Origin: an uncultured Prochlorococcus sp.
GTDB lineage: Bacteria; Cyanobacteriota; Cyanobacteriia; PCC-6307; Cyanobiaceae
NCBI GenBank assembly: GCA_902539115.1
Contig: CACBHP010000002.1
Coordinates: 39,800-103,799, forward strand
DNA length: 64,000 nt
Direction of reading: 5' to 3'
Every line of letters starts with the position of its first letter. The stretch's first letter is position 1. A model generated the notes under the pieces. It did not search any database and was not told the origin of the DNA. It saw only the letters and a list, made by a program, of their open reading frames with translations. Positions 9,126 through 64,000 of this stretch are shown here, piece by piece. The translations under genes were made by a program, and so were the position numbers.

Positions 9126-9139
9126 TTTTTAAATTTTTT

Positions 9140-9397
9140 ATGAATGTAGATATATTCGGATATTTTGCAGCGATTTTAACAACAGCGGCATTCCTACCTC
9201 AATTAATAAAAACCTTGAAAACAAAAAAGGCCGATGATGTTTCTTTAACAACATTAATAATGTTTATTATCGGTGTTTTGTCTTGGATTATTTACGGTTA
9301 TAAAATTTCTTCTACACCAATATTGATAGCAAATTTAATTACTCTAATCTTAAATTTATTGATATTAATCTCTAAAATATATTTTTCAAAAAACTGA
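9140..9397 (+). CDS. SemiSWEET/PQ-loop sugar transporter-like protein
   Basis: 85 aa, three hydrophobic segments, 'AAFLPQLIKTLKTKKADDVS' PQ-loop. Confidence 0.85.
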   Translation: MNVDIFGYFAAILTTAAFLPQLIKTLKTKKADDVSLTTLIMFIIGVLSWIIYGYKISSTPILIANLITLILNLLILISKIYFSKN

Positions 9398-9475
9398 AAT
9401 GAGTAAAATTTTTTTTAAAAGTAATAAAATTTAGATTCAATATTTAAATCCTGATTAAAATAGAACAAAAATTTA

Positions 9476-9706
9476 TTGATCTTGAAAACTTCAAAATGCT
9501 GGGTTTGGTTTAAAGGCAGCCTTAACAATGGTGGATATTGGAAAGAAGGTTTTACATGTACTTTTGATGAGAACCCAGGAGTTTTAATAGAAAGTCCTGC
9601 TTACGTAACTTGTCGGGTTCCTTCATGGAGAGTTTTGACTAAAGAACCAGAAAATTTATATAAATCTCCTCTAATTCCTGACAAAGCAATTTGGAAAATA
9701 ATTTAA
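9476..9706 (+). CDS. conserved hypothetical protein
   Basis: 76-aa ORF, TTG start, no recognised domain. Confidence 0.5.
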   Translation: MILKTSKCWVWFKGSLNNGGYWKEGFTCTFDENPGVLIESPAYVTCRVPSWRVLTKEPENLYKSPLIPDKAIWKII

Positions 9707-9776
9707 GTTCTCAATTATTAATAAAAAACTTTTTGACTGCACTACGGCGAGTTAATATTGCTTTAATAAATATTTA

Positions 9777-10697
9777 ATTAATACCATTTACGCTCTTTTT
9801 ATAAATATTATCCCTTTTTTAATCTTTGGTTTTCTTCTGGGGAAAAAGAATCCAAAGATTTCAAAATATATAGCAAGACCTCTAATAAGATTTGGCATTC
9901 CATTAAGTGTAATGGGTCTCCTATTAAAGGAAGGTATAGATATAAACTTAATTAAAAGTGCATTTTTAGCATTCTCTATAATTGGATTTTTAATAAATTT
10001 AATAAATGTAATCCCAATATTAAAGAAGAGGCTTCCAAATTACACATTGCAGCTAGCAGGCCTCATAGGTAATACATCATTTCTTGGAATACCAATTGCG
10101 CTAGCACTTCTACCTTCAACAACTATAAATTTCACTATTGGATTTGATTTAGGAACAACACTTTTCGCTTGGATATTTGGACCTTTTTTACTTCAAGAAA
10201 AATCCAACAGCAATAACATCCCAAACATCAAAGGACTATTAAATGCATTGATAAATAGCCCGGCATCAAGAGGGATTATTGGTGTACTTCTTGCATATCT
10301 TTTTCAGATAAATGAAATTTTAGGCAATTATCTTTGGATTCCTGCAAGAATAGTTATTGCTTTGGCAATAATAATTGTGGGAACAAGACTTGGAATAATC
10401 ACAAATCAAAATGAGAGGATTTTGGATCTAAATGAAGAAATTAAATTTTCAATTTTATTAAAGTTATTTATTCTTCCCTTTATTATTTTTTTAGTATGCC
10501 AATTCATAAATTTTAATTTCTATCAATCATCTGCAGTAATTCTTCAGGCAGCAACCCCAACGGCAATATCCACAATATTAATGGCAGAGGCTTATGGTGT
10601 GAAACAAAAAATAGCTTCAAAAATTCTTTTCACTACAACTTTAATTTCAATAATTACAATTCCTTTATTAAAAATATTTATGAATTTATTTATTTAA
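9777..10697 (+). CDS. auxin efflux carrier (AEC) family permease
   Basis: Track ORF 9912-10697; in-frame upstream translation 'INTIYALFINIIPFLIFGFLLGKKNPKISKYIARPLIRFGIPLSV' supplies the expected first TM helix but lacks an ATG/GTG/TTG start. Confidence 0.75.
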   Translation: MNTIYALFINIIPFLIFGFLLGKKNPKISKYIARPLIRFGIPLSVMGLLLKEGIDINLIKSAFLAFSIIGFLINLINVIPILKKRLPNYTLQLAGLIGNTSFLGIPIALALLPSTTINFTIGFDLGTTLFAWIFGPFLLQEKSNSNNIPNIKGLLNALINSPASRGIIGVLLAYLFQINEILGNYLWIPARIVIALAIIIVGTRLGIITNQNERILDLNEEIKFSILLKLFILPFIIFLVCQFINFNFYQSSAVILQAATPTAISTILMAEAYGVKQKIASKILFTTTLISIITIPLLKIFMNLFI

Positions 10698-28373: not shown

Positions 28374-28508
28374 AATTCAAAGTGCATAATTATCTAATTT
28401 TATGTGATTTTTTATTGAAAGAGAATATAAAGAAAAGATATTTATTAAACCATAAAAAGAATTTACTTAGATTGTTTAGGCTTATAGTGTCGGATATAAT
28501 AAAAAGAT

Positions 28509-28582
<74 letters not shown>

Positions 28583-28621
28583 TAAAATAATTTCTTAGGA
28601 AACTGTAACGTTAAAAATCCC

Positions 28622-28704: not shown

Positions 28705-29973
28705 TTGATTTTCATGATGGAAAAATTATTGATTAAATCAAATATAAATTATGCATTTTTCATATTTTATTTAGGAGTATTTTTACTACCTTCTGCTTTC
28801 AGCTTAGCTGCCTTTCTACTTCTAATAGCTTCAATTATTGGTTTTAAGAAAAATAATAAAGTCTATCATAGAGACAAAATTAATGTCGCATTTTTAATTA
28901 GTAGCGCGTTTATGATTATCAGTTGCGTTTTTCAAACAATAAATTATAAGTTTTCAGCATTAACAACTTGGACACCTTCTTTATCATGGATTGGGTTAAT
29001 TAATTGGGTACCATTTTTTTTCCTTTCTTGGGGTTTTCAACCTTATTTAATTACATCAAAGTCGAGAAAAAGATTTGCTTTAGCTCTACTTGCTGGTTCT
29101 TTTCCAGTTTTAATAACTGGAATTGGGCAAGTTTTTTTTAATTGGCATGGCCCAAAAGAAATTCTTAATGGCTTTATAATTTGGTATTCAAGACCTTCTG
29201 ATAATAACGTATTAACAGGTTTATTTAATAACCCAAATTATGCTGGAGCATGGTTGAGTGTCATCTTACCAATTGCATTTGCAAAATTAATAAAAAAAGA
29301 TTTTTTTTTAAAAAGGGCTACATCATTAATTTTTCTCATTTTAATCATAATTTGCATTATTCTTACTAACTCAAGATCAGCTTGGATAGGTTTATTTGCC
29401 TCAATTATTTTATTTTTTGGTGTAAATTCTCTAAAATGGGTTTTTTCGTCAATAATTGTTATCGCAATACCAATTATATATTCTCTTTTAAATCAACAAT
29501 TTACTTTAATTCCATTAGAAGCATTAAATGAATTCTCTAATTTTCAGTATTTAGATAGGTTAGATATCTGGATAAAATCTTTTCAAATAATTTCTGAGAA
29601 TCCACTTTTTGGATCAGGAGCTGCATCTTTCGCAGAGATTTATCAAAATATTAGTGGTATAGGGAGAAATCATTCACATAATCTAATATTGGAGATGATC
29701 ATAAGTTATGGGATTCCTGCAGCATTATTTACTTTTATTCCAATTACTTATTTAACTTTGGTTGGAACTAAAAAATGCTTTTTTAAAAAGAATTTTCCAG
29801 ATTGTCTCATAGAAAGATCACTTGTAACGTCTTTGATCGTTATTTTAATGATGCACATGGTCGATATCCAATATTTTGATGGGAGAATAAGTCTCATAAT
29901 ATGGATCTTAATTGCTGCAATTAAAAATATTTCTTACGATAAATCAAATAAAAACTTCCAAATTGACTCCTAG
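28705..29973 (+). CDS. O-antigen ligase/polymerase family membrane protein
   Basis: 422 aa, multi-TM; 'GLFNNPNYAGAWLSVILPIAFA', 'LTNSRSAWIGLFASI', 'IGRNHSHNLILEMIISYGIPAAL'. Confidence 0.85.
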   Translation: MIFMMEKLLIKSNINYAFFIFYLGVFLLPSAFSLAAFLLLIASIIGFKKNNKVYHRDKINVAFLISSAFMIISCVFQTINYKFSALTTWTPSLSWIGLINWVPFFFLSWGFQPYLITSKSRKRFALALLAGSFPVLITGIGQVFFNWHGPKEILNGFIIWYSRPSDNNVLTGLFNNPNYAGAWLSVILPIAFAKLIKKDFFLKRATSLIFLILIIICIILTNSRSAWIGLFASIILFFGVNSLKWVFSSIIVIAIPIIYSLLNQQFTLIPLEALNEFSNFQYLDRLDIWIKSFQIISENPLFGSGAASFAEIYQNISGIGRNHSHNLILEMIISYGIPAALFTFIPITYLTLVGTKKCFFKKNFPDCLIERSLVTSLIVILMMHMVDIQYFDGRISLIIWILIAAIKNISYDKSNKNFQIDS

Positions 29974-31548: not shown

Positions 31549-32394
31549 TTAATAATTACTTTTCATATAGTCGAATACATATCTAATTCCTTCATGGATA
31601 GAAGTTCGTGGGCTCCACCATTTTGTTATGTATTGATTAGGCCTGTTTTTTGTTGACCTTTGAACTTGATCCTGCTCAACTCCTGGCTTGATATTTACAG
31701 AGAGTCCTTCTTTCCTAAAAAGACTCTCGATGATTGAAGCTATCTCAAGAATTGTGGTCGATTTAAAAGAAGTAATATGTAAGTCATCACTTGAAATAAA
31801 TTCATCATAATTACACATTATTTTTTCCAATGCCTCGCAACAATCTTCAGCATATAAAAACTCTCTTTCTTCTAAACCATTTGTTAACATTCGAAACTCT
31901 CTTTCCTCGAAACCTTTTCTAATAAAATCAGTAATTACATGTGCTTTTTCCATATCTTTTTCAATCCCATAAACATTCCAAAACTTAACTATTAGTCCTG
32001 AGAGTGATTTAGTGTATAGCTCACCAACATTTTTTAAAACTCCATAAGGCGAAAAGCTCATATTACTCATTTGACTGCTAGCAAAAACAAAACGCTTTTT
32101 GTATTTAGATAAATAATCAAATGTATTAACCATTAGTCTTGAGTTATTGTTAATAAATTCGAAGGTATGTTGATATTTTTTTAAATACCTAGAGCCACCA
32201 ACATCAAATGCCAAAAAATAGATGAAATCAGATTCTTCTATGCACCTTCCTAAATAATCATTTGGTATGGTTCTTAAATCTTCTTTTTCATTGTTTAGTA
32301 TGTCAAAATTTGTAACTTCGTATCCTTTCTTAACCAAGTATTCAGACAGATAAGCTCCTACCTGACCGGAGGATCCCAAAATAACAACTTTCAT
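31549..32394 (-). CDS. NAD-dependent epimerase/dehydratase
   Basis: 281 aa; 'VVILGSSGQVGAYLSEYLVKKGYEV'; adjacent to the GME-like gene. Confidence 0.82.
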   Translation of the reverse strand: MKVVILGSSGQVGAYLSEYLVKKGYEVTNFDILNNEKEDLRTIPNDYLGRCIEESDFIYFLAFDVGGSRYLKKYQHTFEFINNNSRLMVNTFDYLSKYKKRFVFASSQMSNMSFSPYGVLKNVGELYTKSLSGLIVKFWNVYGIEKDMEKAHVITDFIRKGFEEREFRMLTNGLEEREFLYAEDCCEALEKIMCNYDEFISSDDLHITSFKSTTILEIASIIESLFRKEGLSVNIKPGVEQDQVQRSTKNRPNQYITKWWSPRTSIHEGIRYVFDYMKSNY

Positions 32395-32401
32395 AAATTA
32401 G

Positions 32402-33412
32402 TTAGACTCTAGCTAAATTTTTAGACTTTATTTGCTCATTGATCCATTGATAAGTTTTCAAAATGCCCTCTTCTAAAGTTAGTTTATAATCCCAATTCAA
32501 CTTTTGCCTTATGAGGTCATTATTTGAATTTCTTCCTCTCACACCTAAGGGACCATCGATATGATTCTTTTTAACCAACTTATTTGCAACTTTAGAAGTT
32601 ATATCCACTAATTCATTTATGGATACCATCTCTTCCGACCCTATGTTTACAGGACCCATAAAGTCAGATTCAACTAATCTTCTTGTAGCCTCAATGCATT
32701 CATCTACAAAAAGGAAAGATCTGGTTTGCAATCCATCTCCCCATACCTCAATAGTTCCTCCATCCTCTGATAAAGAAGCAACTTTTCGACATATAGCTGC
32801 AGGTGCTTTTTCTCTACCACCTTCCCAAGTTCCTTCTGGTCCGAATATATTATGATATCTTGCAACCCTTACAGGTATTTTATAGTTTCTATTGTAAGCG
32901 AAATATAATCTCTCTGAAAATAATTTTTCCCAACCGTATTCTGAATCAGGATTAGCTGGATATGCAGAATCTTCTCTGCAATTAGGATTATCAGGATCTA
33001 ATTGATTATGTTCAGGGTACATACATGCAGATCCTGAATAAAATATTTTAGTTTTATTTAGAGATAATTTTTTATTTAGTTTTACTTGTTGATCCAAAAT
33101 ATTTAAATTAATAGAGACTGAATTATGCATTATATGTGCATCATTTTCACCTGTAAAAACAAACCCTGCGCCACCCATATCTGCAGCAAATTGATAAATG
33201 TGGTCGAAAGTAGTATTTTCTGGAGTTTTCAAAATATCTTCAACTAATAAAATATTCCTTAGATCGCCTTGAACAAACTCATTTGCCTTAGTTTGGGAAA
33301 ATTCGGGATATTTTAAATCTACCCCTCTAACCCAAAAGCCTTCATTTATTAGTCTTCTAACCATATGACTACCTATAAAGCCACCTGCACCAAGAACTAA
33401 GGCCGTTTTCAT
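32402..33412 (-). CDS. GDP-mannose 3,5-epimerase-like NAD-dependent epimerase
   Basis: 336 aa; 'GAGGFIGSHMVRRLINEGFWVRGVDLKYPEF', 'SACMYPEHNQ', 'YGWEKLFSERLYFAYNRNYKIPVRVARYHNIFGPEGTWEGGREKAPAAICRK'. Confidence 0.85.
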   Translation of the reverse strand: MKTALVLGAGGFIGSHMVRRLINEGFWVRGVDLKYPEFSQTKANEFVQGDLRNILLVEDILKTPENTTFDHIYQFAADMGGAGFVFTGENDAHIMHNSVSINLNILDQQVKLNKKLSLNKTKIFYSGSACMYPEHNQLDPDNPNCREDSAYPANPDSEYGWEKLFSERLYFAYNRNYKIPVRVARYHNIFGPEGTWEGGREKAPAAICRKVASLSEDGGTIEVWGDGLQTRSFLFVDECIEATRRLVESDFMGPVNIGSEEMVSINELVDITSKVANKLVKKNHIDGPLGVRGRNSNNDLIRQKLNWDYKLTLEEGILKTYQWINEQIKSKNLARV

Positions 33413-33590
33413 TTTTTAAAATCTAGACAAAATTTTACTTAATATAGCATAAGCTATCTAAAATAATTAATTCCTAATTTAAGTATTTAATTATGAAAAT
33501 TATATTTAATTTAGTAGATAATCTCTAATTATCTCTTATAGCAATTTTGTAATAATTAAAAATTTTATATAAAAATAAGTAGCAATTAAA

Positions 33591-34904
33591 AAAATCATAA
33601 CCATTTATATAATAGGCACAATCTTACCCATAATATTATTTCTAATTGAAAAAAATATACCATATAAGTTATTAGAAAAATTAACTATACTTTCACAAGA
33701 TATTTATTATTCTGATTACTATGGCGTTCTTCAAACAGTAACTATAATAATAATTAGTTAAATGATTTTAATATTATTTTATAATAAAAAAAGTTATCTT
33801 TTTCATGTATATTTAAATTCTAAATCAATAATATTAATAACCTTATATTTTTTTTACCGAATAATAAATTCTGGATTTTTTCTTATTAAAATTTGACAGA
33901 TATAGTAGAAAACAAATCCAAATTATTGAATCAATTTCAAGAATTGGTTTCAAGGGATTAATAATTTCTTTTCTTAATAGTATATATCCAGTAATTGTAA
34001 CTTTAACTTTTTCAAGTTATTTATCATTACCTAAAGAGTGTAAAAAAAAATATAAAATGCTTATATTGTTTATAATTATTATACTTGGTTTTTCATCTTT
34101 GCTTTTTGATTTATAAGAGGTTCAAGAGGTAATATTAGTATTTATTGGATATCTTTATTAATAGGTTATTTAATTACATTTAAAGATTCAGTATTTAAAT
34201 TAAATCTAAAAAAAATATTTCCTTTTTATTGATTTCTTTCATTTTAACAACTATTTTTATAAGCAATACTTTTTATAGATATATAAGGTTTTCTAAAAAT
34301 AGCTATGGAATTAATTTAAATATTAATTCTGAAAAATTAATTTTTTTAAAAATATTTCATGATTCAACAATAGCTAAGGCTATCGGAGGTCAATAATTAA
34401 TCAACAAAGGCATAAGAGGAGAAATGATATTAACTAATTTCACAACGAATCCCTTTTCATTTAGAAAAGATATTAATATAAATTCAATAGAACAAGAAAT
34501 AATTACTGCAAGGTAAATAATTGCCTGCACCTTTTTTCAACCATTATTCAAATTATTTTCAATATTTGGCTATTCGAATAAAGTAAATTTAATATATATC
34601 ATTTAACGGAGATTTCCCTTTTAAATCAGGCTCGTATTTGGGTTCATTATATATAGTATTCAAAAGAAATATTGCTACAATTGTTTATTTAATACTTATA
34701 TTTTTAAATGCTACTTTAATTAATTTTAGATTAAATTATATACAATTTATATCAATATTTAATATTTTTTATTTCAGCTTCTTTGCATTTACTGATAATT
34801 GGTTTGTGAGTTATTACCCATACATATCAATATTAATAATACTTTTAGCTAAATATTTAAATATAAAAATATTAAGAATAAAAAGAGATATTTATAATTT
34901 GTAA
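33591..34904 (+). pseudogene. degraded Wzy-like oligosaccharide repeat-unit polymerase
   Basis: Hydrophobic translation resumes across frames: 'LEKLTILSQDIYYSDYYGVLQTVTIIIIS*', 'KFDRYSRKQIQIIESISRIGFKGLIISFLNSIYPVI...', 'IRGSRGNISIYWISLLIGYLITF', 'KGIRGEMILTNF', 'GSLYIVFKRNIATIVYLILIFLNA...FFAFTDNWFVSYYPYISILIILLAKYL*'; at least five interruptions. Confidence 0.75.
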
Positions 34905-34966
34905 GCCTAATTAGAAATTATCTTAGTAAATCTTCTCGTGTATAATAATGAAAATAATTATTAATT

Positions 34967-35935
34967 TTGTTCATGAAGAAGGCTGCTTTAATTACTGGAG
35001 GTGCAGGCTTTATCGGTTCAAATCTAATAAAAGCTTTAACAAAAAGCTTCGATCAATTAATTTGTATAGATAATTTAAGTAGAGGTAAAAAAGAATATCT
35101 AAAAGAAGTGCAAAATTTGCATTTTATTAATGAAGATTTATCTAACTATAATGAGATAAAAAGGCATATAGACCAGTTACAGACTCAATTCGAAATAGAT
35201 GAAGTTTGGCATTTAGTGGCAAATTCAGATATCCCTTCGGGGGTGGCTAATGCTGAAATTGATTTAAAAGATACGTTTCTTTGCTCTCATGCACTTTGTA
35301 AATGCTTTGAAAAAATTCCCCCCAAAAAAATTATATTCGCCTCGAGTTCTGCTGTCTATGGTGATATGGGAGATGCACTAATTGATGAGAAAAGTGCCCC
35401 TCTTTTTCCTATCTCTAACTATGGAGCAATGAAATTAGCTTCAGAAGCTTATTTATCTGCTTGGATAGAAAAAACTAAATCTAAATTAATAATTTTTAGA
35501 TTCCCAAATGTAGTTGGGACCCCTGCAACACATGGAGTAATATACGATTTTTTAAGAAGGCTCATTAAAGATAAAAGAAGTTTGCAAGTTTTGGGAAATG
35601 GCTTTCAAATGAAGCCCTATCTTCTTTGTGATGATCTTATTCAAATAATGATTTTTCTAAAAAGTAATATTAAAAATAAAAGAGAAGTCTTTAATATTGG
35701 GCCCTCTGATGCAGGAGTATTTGTAAAAGATATCGCAAAAACAGCCTGTGAGATTGCAGGTGACTCTGAGACAACTATAAATTATGAAGATAATGATAGA
35801 GGTTGGATTGGAGATGTTCCAAAATTTAAATATGATATTAGAAAACTTCAGCAAGCTGGTTGGAGCAAAGAATTATCTTCAATTAAAGCAATAAAAATTG
35901 CTACTAAACAAATTTTTAATCAATTGAAAAATTAA
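34967..35935 (+). CDS. NAD-dependent sugar epimerase/dehydratase (SDR)
   Basis: 322 aa; 'ALITGGAGFIGSNLIKAL', 'SSSAVYGD', 'SNYGAMKLASEAY'. Confidence 0.9.
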   Translation: MFMKKAALITGGAGFIGSNLIKALTKSFDQLICIDNLSRGKKEYLKEVQNLHFINEDLSNYNEIKRHIDQLQTQFEIDEVWHLVANSDIPSGVANAEIDLKDTFLCSHALCKCFEKIPPKKIIFASSSAVYGDMGDALIDEKSAPLFPISNYGAMKLASEAYLSAWIEKTKSKLIIFRFPNVVGTPATHGVIYDFLRRLIKDKRSLQVLGNGFQMKPYLLCDDLIQIMIFLKSNIKNKREVFNIGPSDAGVFVKDIAKTACEIAGDSETTINYEDNDRGWIGDVPKFKYDIRKLQQAGWSKELSSIKAIKIATKQIFNQLKN

Positions 35936-35991
35936 TAAACGGAATTTTTTTAAATTCAATTTATAAAGCAAAAAAATTGAAGGAAATTGTT

Positions 35992-36795
35992 TCACTTAAT
36001 ACGTAAAAATCTCTTTAGAGAATATAAATTAATCCTTAGAAAAGTTCTAAGAGTGGATTTTAAAAATCCTAGTAATATTCCAAAACTAAAAAATAACGCT
36101 CTTAAGAGATATCTATATCTGATTTGATTTTCAAACTTATAAACTGACAAGAAAGAAGATGTCATTCTATTTGCATGAATTCTATAAGTTACAAGTTCCT
36201 TATTAATCTGAATGATTCTTATCCCTGATAAAAATGATCTAATCCAAAAATCCCAATCTTCGCAATTTTTATAATTATCAAACTTTATAACCTTAAAAAC
36301 ATCTAAAGAACCCGATATGGCACTGCCTCCTCCAATTAAATTACTATACCCAACGCTAAAAGGATTAGGATTAGGTTTTACTTTTGAAGGAACAGATATC
36401 AAACTTTCACCTTTTAATGAATTATGAAAATGCTTAACTAAGCATGGTTTATTTTTTTCTATCGCTTTAACAGTTAACCGCACTTTATCTTTGTGCCAGA
36501 GATCATCATCATCTCCAAAAATAATTATTTCATTTTCACAAAGATCAATCCCAAGATTTCTTGCGCAAGAAAGTCCATTTTTTTTAGAAACAACGAATTT
36601 ACAATTTAAATTATTAGGAATTTTTCTTTTTAAAAAATTTATAGAATTTTTAATATCATTTAATGGCCTACCACTTACAATGATTAAAATTTCATCCGGT
36701 AAAAGAGTTTGATTCTTAATAGATTTTATAAGGTCTAAAAAAAAATCTAAATTCTCTAATTTAGATGGGATACAAACAGTAGTCTTATTGTTCAT
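35992..36795 (-). CDS. GT2-family glycosyltransferase
   Basis: ORF 35992-36840, start trimmed to ATG at 36795 (MNNKTTVCIPSK) so that it does not overlap its neighbour; 'SCARNLGIDLCENEIIIFGDDDDLWHKDKV'. Confidence 0.87.
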   Translation of the reverse strand: MNNKTTVCIPSKLENLDFFLDLIKSIKNQTLLPDEILIIVSGRPLNDIKNSINFLKRKIPNNLNCKFVVSKKNGLSCARNLGIDLCENEIIIFGDDDDLWHKDKVRLTVKAIEKNKPCLVKHFHNSLKGESLISVPSKVKPNPNPFSVGYSNLIGGGSAISGSLDVFKVIKFDNYKNCEDWDFWIRSFLSGIRIIQINKELVTYRIHANRMTSSFLSVYKFENQIRYRYLLRALFFSFGILLGFLKSTLRTFLRINLYSLKRFLRIK

Positions 36796-36811
36796 AATAT
36801 TTATTCTAAAT

Positions 36812-37759
36812 TTATCTAAATAAGTTTTTGTTGTCTTCACTAAGATAATTTATTGTGTTAATAACTCCTTTTTTTATTGAAACTTTTGGTTCCCAATTGT
36901 AAGATTTGGCTTTTGATATATCTAAATGAACCATAGGCGAATCCCCAATCCAACCTCTTTTTGTTCCAGAAAACTTATAGTTTATATTTTTGATTGAGAG
37001 AGATTGACAAACAATGTCAGCCAGTTCTTTTACTGACATAATTTCAGAATGTCCTAAATTAAATATCTCTGATTTACTATTATGATTTACCAATTTTATT
37101 ATTCCCTTTACACCATCAGAAACATCTAGAAAAGATTTACGTTGAGATCCATCACCTAAAATTTCCAAATATTTTTTGTTAATTTTTAATTTCTTATAAA
37201 AATCATAAATAACTCCATGGGAGTATCCCACTCCTATCCATGAAACAAATCTAAATATAGAACTTTTAAAATCACCATATTCCGAATATGCTTGAATAAA
37301 AGCTTCACAGGCTAACTTACTTGCTCCATATACTGAAGTTTGTCTAAAGCATTCATTTTCAGAAGTAGGGAAGTTACTCGGCTCTCCATATACAGCTGCA
37401 CTACTTGCAAATATAAGATGCTCGCAATTATTAATTCTTGCATAATCACATACTGATTTTGTTACTAACAAATTTTGGTGCAAATCAATATCTCTATTTA
37501 AAATCCCTCCTCTAACATCTGCATTAGCAGCGAAATGATAAATATAGTTTAAATTCTTAATTACAGGCCATTCTTTATAATCAGTTGATAAATCTATTTC
37601 AAAGAATACTAAATTAGGGTTATTTAAAGGTAAATTTTCCTTTCTTCCTGTACTCAAATTATCGAAAATATATACTTTAATATCAAAATTTTTCAGTAAC
37701 TCACTTATTAAATTTGAACCTATAAAACCAGCTCCTCCTGTAACTAATATATTTTGCAT
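36812..37759 (-). CDS. NAD-dependent sugar epimerase/dehydratase (SDR), paralogue of 34967-35935
   Basis: 315 aa; 'ILVTGGAGFIGSNLISEL', 'SSAAVYGEP', 'SVYGASKLACEAF'. Confidence 0.9.
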   Translation of the reverse strand: MQNILVTGGAGFIGSNLISELLKNFDIKVYIFDNLSTGRKENLPLNNPNLVFFEIDLSTDYKEWPVIKNLNYIYHFAANADVRGGILNRDIDLHQNLLVTKSVCDYARINNCEHLIFASSAAVYGEPSNFPTSENECFRQTSVYGASKLACEAFIQAYSEYGDFKSSIFRFVSWIGVGYSHGVIYDFYKKLKINKKYLEILGDGSQRKSFLDVSDGVKGIIKLVNHNSKSEIFNLGHSEIMSVKELADIVCQSLSIKNINYKFSGTKRGWIGDSPMVHLDISKAKSYNWEPKVSIKKGVINTINYLSEDNKNLFR

Positions 37760-63516: not shown

Positions 63517-63642
63517 AGTTTAAGAATATAGTTAATATTTAAAAACTTGAATTTTAAAAATATATTTCTACAATACCTATTTTTTTTTAAAATAGTTTTA
63601 ATTTTCATTAACTTAACTCCAAAATTTTGACTTGAAAACTTG

Positions 63643-64000
63643 TTAATATAATCCACAGAAATCCATAAACGTAATATTTTCCGCATGCTTTGAATTAAAT
63701 TCTTTATGAGCAACAAGACCTACTAAGATATCTACTTGCAACAATATTTCTTCATAATCAACCAAATTAATATTTTCGTGAAATGAAATATTTGGTTCAC
63801 AAGCAATAACATTCTCAGATTCTTTTAAAAGATTTAAAACTATTTCTAAAGCAGGGGATTCCCTTAAATCTTCTACATCAGCTTTAAATGTTAATCCTAA
63901 GCATCCAATAATAGGCTTCCTCCCATTAGCCTTATAAAAATCTTTTGATTTAAGTAAAATTTTTTCTATCACCCACTTGGTTTTCTTTATATTTACTTTT
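63643..64000 (-). CDS. wecC: UDP-N-acetyl-D-mannosamine dehydrogenase, C-terminal part (truncated by window edge)
   Basis: 'VNIKKTKWVIEKILLKSK...IIGCLGLTFKADVEDLRESPALEIVLNLLKE...FMDFCGLY*'; reading frame remains open to the window end. Confidence 0.85.
   Translation of the reverse strand, partial: KVNIKKTKWVIEKILLKSKDFYKANGRKPIIGCLGLTFKADVEDLRESPALEIVLNLLKESENVIACEPNISFHENINLVDYEEILLQVDILVGLVAHKEFNSKHAENITFMDFCGLY

Follow-up and report, generated by a model that had tools for sequence, protein, structure and literature searches.

What, if anything, was once encoded between two intact epimerase genes of a surface-polysaccharide island, where no long open reading frame is found today? The locus lies in the window, by which we mean the whole stretch of 64,000 nucleotides that was analysed. 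The window forms the final 64 kb of a contig of 103.8 kb from a Prochlorococcus draft genome of 1.10 Mb (48 contigs, ~70% complete; complete members of the genus have ~1.6–1.8 Mb), and this AT-rich cyanobacterial genome encodes short Pcb-like PF00421 proteins. The island starts at tRNA-Arg(TCT) (28508–28583, + strand) and extends to the contig end. Both neighbours of the locus are intact: an NAD-dependent epimerase gene (PF01370; 32402–33412, − strand) lies upstream on the opposite strand, and an NAD-dependent epimerase/dehydratase gene (PF01370; 34967–35935, + strand) lies downstream in the same orientation as the locus, 62 bp away. Four NAD-dependent epimerase/dehydratase genes are found on both strands within ~6 kb (31549–37759; at 31549, 32402, 34967 and 36812), and the products of those at 34967 and 36812 are ~39% identical.

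On the + strand of 33579–34904, the longest open reading frame has 88 amino acids (34638–34904), and every frame in 33413–34966 has 88 amino acids or fewer. Three-frame translation gives hydrophobic segments that abut one another along 33579–34904, and a near-continuous reading path of 437 residues on the + strand was recovered by an unsupervised coding-frame search, using a frame-tracking Viterbi model trained on ~335 kb of genes from the same genome and on island genes. The path runs through frame A (33580–33884), frame B (33885–34110), frame A again (34111–34205), frame C (34206–34594) and once more frame A (34595–34898). It is interrupted by three in-frame stops (TAA at 33759–33761, 34394–34396 and 34514–34516) and four frame changes (~33885–33893, 34105–34116, 34199–34232 and 34593–34606), and no start codon could be recognised in its first segment. 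The preliminary description of this DNA had reported a hydrophobic read-through with frame changes in place of a long frame, which the 88-residue maximum and the Viterbi path bear out. The two peptides it quoted, IRGSRGNISIYWISLLIGYL and FAFTDNWFVSYYPYISILIILLAKYL, are both present; the frame of FAFTDNWFVSYYPYISILIILLAKYL continues for 15 codons past the quoted end, to a stop at 34902–34904. All five lesion positions that it gave (33759, 33893, 34115, 34230 and 34394) are correct, but the list was incomplete, missing the stop at 34514–34516 and the frame change near 34600.

Hydrophobicity alone is weak evidence for a former gene, because the DNA has ~20% G+C and random AT-rich codons encode hydrophobic residues. 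The periodic coding signal is better evidence. On the + strand the path reaches z = 8.0, a value equalled by none of 500 dinucleotide shuffles, and island genes given four artificial deletions each score 6.6–17.1, a range that contains the value of the interval. The reverse strand gives z = 3.1, read as a shadow signal; values of up to 11.6 occur on the antisense strands of intact genes, and thus the strand call rests on the + value being clearly above the − value. This measure took the place of a simpler test, codon log-odds with an entry cost, that had lacked the necessary power, and the first intergenic controls (at least 300 bp) contained short genes, so short gaps were used instead. These short gaps of the same genome, concatenated, have a mean z of 1.1 and a maximum of 3.7. 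That the stretch was never a gene, its hydrophobic translation being a product of AT-rich intergenic DNA, would suit a base composition at which such translations come cheaply and the lack of homologs in every collection searched. It is nonetheless exceedingly improbable, given a three-base periodic signal at more than twice the intergenic maximum and well over that of the − strand, and a gene-free stretch of 1.5 kb would stand out in an island whose other examined gaps are 0.56 kb or shorter. Coding-like periodic signal was also seen in two unannotated gaps, 63517–64000 (z 6.3 on the − strand, cut by the contig end) and 9126–9911 (z 7.2 on the + strand), and these may hold short or decayed genes.

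The lesions could also be errors of sequencing, amplification or assembly in a gene that is intact in the cell. Some frame changes adjoin runs of A or T (e.g., A8 near 34208 and T5 near 34222), and the source is a fragmented, incomplete draft. However, sequencing error is unlikely because the neighbouring genes are intact: seven lesions are crowded into 1.3 kb while the island genes on either side run uninterrupted, three of the seven are nonsense codons rather than indels, and a recognisable start codon is absent. An intact gene hidden by errors is therefore given very little credence. With a former coding signal and disabling lesions in one interval, the stretch is almost certainly a true pseudogene, derived from a gene for a multi-span membrane protein, and the decayed gene proposed in the preliminary description is upheld by the reading path and its z score relative to the controls. 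It is gene loss of an ordinary kind, seen here in a single case.

The membrane topology predicted for the 437-residue read-through comprises 10–11 spans and a single large hydrophilic loop in the later part of the chain. By translation and the Viterbi model, segment 1 (33579–33896, + strand), in which the first TAA falls, carries spans 1–3, and segment 2 (33885–34116, + strand), in another frame, carries spans 4–5. Segment 3 (34110–34232, + strand), delimited by the same means together with topology, returns to the first frame and holds a GSRG motif followed by span 6. Segment 4 (34199–34606, + strand), in the third frame and with the other two stops, holds span 7 and, after it, the large loop, which is the largest of the protein at 80 residues in the 11-span prediction. 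Segment 5 (34593–34904, + strand), again in the first frame, adds the C-terminal spans and ends at the TAA at 34902–34904. For comparison, the largest loop follows span 8–9 of 11–13 in 5 of 6 PF14296 polymerases and span 7–8 in most PF04932 proteins, a comparison that is crude, since the flippase of the window likewise has its largest loop mid-chain. The GSRG motif stands at the start of predicted span 6, ahead of the large loop, and the PF04932 ligases of the genus carry SRN, SRA or SRS (SR[NSA]) opening a span near mid-chain, at a comparable place. Wzy proteins cross the membrane 10–14 times and have a single large periplasmic loop past the midpoint, an arrangement that the prediction reproduces for span number and loop position. 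The arginine motif associated with Wzy may be represented by the GSRG before span 6, a short motif that is also typical of ligases. Predicted span layout, loop and motif together fit the Wzy/WaaL arrangement.

The gene neighbourhood is also that of a Wzy gene, with a flippase, an initiating transferase and glycosyltransferases nearby. The island encodes an intact Wzx-type flippase (PF01943/PF13440; 58038–59282, + strand), an intact initiating sugar-phosphate transferase (PF02397; 41926–43254, − strand), glycosyltransferases, GDP-mannose genes, a ManC-type enzyme and epimerases. An intact ABC transporter whose membrane and ATPase domains are fused (PF00664/PF00005; 44508–46172, − strand) is a PglK-like candidate flippase for lipid-linked sugars. 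The presence of both an ABC-type candidate and a Wzx-type flippase in one island suggests either that there are two routes of export or that the island is a mosaic built from two clusters. An intact O-antigen ligase/Wzy_C family protein (PF04932; 28705–29973, + strand) is the only above-threshold PF04932 member of the ~70% complete draft. The 64-kb window yielded no further polymerase candidate, and neither a Wzz chain-length regulator nor an EpsG-type polymerase was found in the available ~70% of the genome. The epimerase/dehydratase at 34967–35935 is probably a former operon partner of the pseudogene. Its best relatives in the genus are 45–50% identical and no polymerase occurs in the neighbourhoods of the closest ones, so within the set of genomes compared the cassette is confined to this lineage.

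The preliminary description had named the lost gene a Wzy-like polymerase, and here topology, motif and neighbourhood agree with it, but sequence homology is lacking in every library searched. Searches of Pfam, NCBIfam, PHROGs and PDB gave nothing meaningful for the read-through protein, and no Wzy family of Pfam matched it up to E = 10; the Pfam scan likewise matched neither PF04932 (O-antigen ligase) nor the Wzx flippase families PF01943/PF13440 to the pseudogene. No credible relative was found in 266 genomes of the genus, in 390 genomes of the class, in two scans of GTDB-species contigs, in one scan of viral contigs or in phage and plasmid records, and none of the genus, class, GTDB-species, viral, phage and plasmid collections contained an intact allele, each species being represented by a single genome. 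In profile comparisons with hhalign, scores against polymerase, ligase and flippase sets were within the null of shuffled composites and those against 11 ligases of the genus were not above shuffles; GT39 and a DMT transporter were marginally above most shuffles (1/30 each). It is documented that Wzy and WaaL proteins are poorly conserved in sequence (PMC4594306), and PF14296 matches 0 of 121 genomes of the genus and nothing in a family search of the whole draft genome. The absence of homologs is thus weak evidence against Wzy, and missing homologs neither prove nor exclude that identity.

Several weak matches were set aside. A DNA search of the interval within the genus returned only short AT-rich matches, taken as chance, and a 29-bp stretch inside the pseudogene (34494–34522), with 93% matches in dozens of genus genomes, is probably a chance resemblance to one conserved gene. 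Weak protein matches from class genomes (E = 7e-4 to 0.02) fall inside unrelated genes or antisense to them, one such gene being a carbamoyl-phosphate-synthase-like frame, and a weak match in the genus (E = 0.05) lies inside a 1103-residue frame equal in size to that one. Among ~40 island stretches of relatives in the genus, most multi-span frames outside the PF04932 group are singletons without a relative. Strain-private membrane proteins, going by these sequences, are the rule in islands of the genus.

Taken together, the locus is a decayed + strand gene for an inner-membrane protein, which was probably a Wzy-type repeat-unit polymerase of the island's surface polysaccharide. The polymerase function is what we infer for a locus whose former coding sequence, lesions, predicted topology and neighbourhood are established here. 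Like Wzy polymerases (PF14296 and many unclassified Wzy), the read-through has ~440 residues, 10–11 spans, a large late loop and a short candidate G-x-R motif opening a span, and its gene is surrounded by those for flippases, an initiating transferase and glycosyltransferases; it differs from them in having no significant sequence or profile match and in being broken. The PF04932/WaaL ligases share a similar topology and an SR-type motif at a span and have an intact member in the same island (28705–29973), whereas PF04932 does not detect the pseudogene, whose scores against the 11 ligases stay within the range of shuffles. Another multi-span protein of the island, be it a WaaL-type ligase, a flippase, a GT-C glycosyltransferase or a membrane acyltransferase, is a possible though less favoured source, as the identity is not pinned down by a match to any family, islands of related genomes contain many different orphan multi-span proteins, and the marginal hhalign scores fall on GT39 and the DMT transporter. 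Conversely, Pfam usually detects even divergent members of PF04932, PF01943, GT39 and similar families, and it detected none here, and a single large late loop with GSRG at a span suits a polymerase or ligase better than a GT-C protein; in the GT-C protein W_11057, the large loop follows span 1. There is a slim chance that the stretch is the remnant of an undescribed polymerase family that survives, among the genomes searched, only as this decayed copy, and whose loss would have turned a polymerised surface glycan into a single-unit one.

In the Wzy pathway, flipped lipid-linked repeat units are joined in the periplasm before ligation. If the gene was indeed a Wzy-type polymerase, the intact protein of ~440 residues and 10–11 spans would have polymerised such flipped sugar units into a chain in the periplasm. 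As it stands, the reading path is broken in at least seven places (by three stops and four frame changes), and no such protein can now be made. The pseudogene represents the loss of one putative polymerase gene, and a cell-wide loss of polymerisation does not follow, because the draft lacks about a third of the genome and, beyond the contig end, the far end of the island, and because ligase and polymerase are both possible roles for a PF04932 protein.

Marine picocyanobacteria and SAR11 have hypervariable islands for surface polysaccharides (PMC11898729 and references therein), and as in those, strain-private sugar genes lie here beside a tRNA gene in a region of high turnover; unlike in those islands, a decayed gene is still recognisable. 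A recent O-antigen switch under phage selection, as put forward in the preliminary description, is plausible as a history for islands of this kind (references in PMC11898729) and would be speculative for this one. The loss may have followed the replacement or disuse of an old sugar chain in a fast-changing island. Genes of surface islands set phage attachment, and because picocyanobacterial genomes are streamlined, a pseudogene that can still be read offers a snapshot of turnover in phage-attachment genes. Intact alleles in sister cells, if found, would permit a direct test of how the loss of a polymerase affects the glycan and phage sensitivity.
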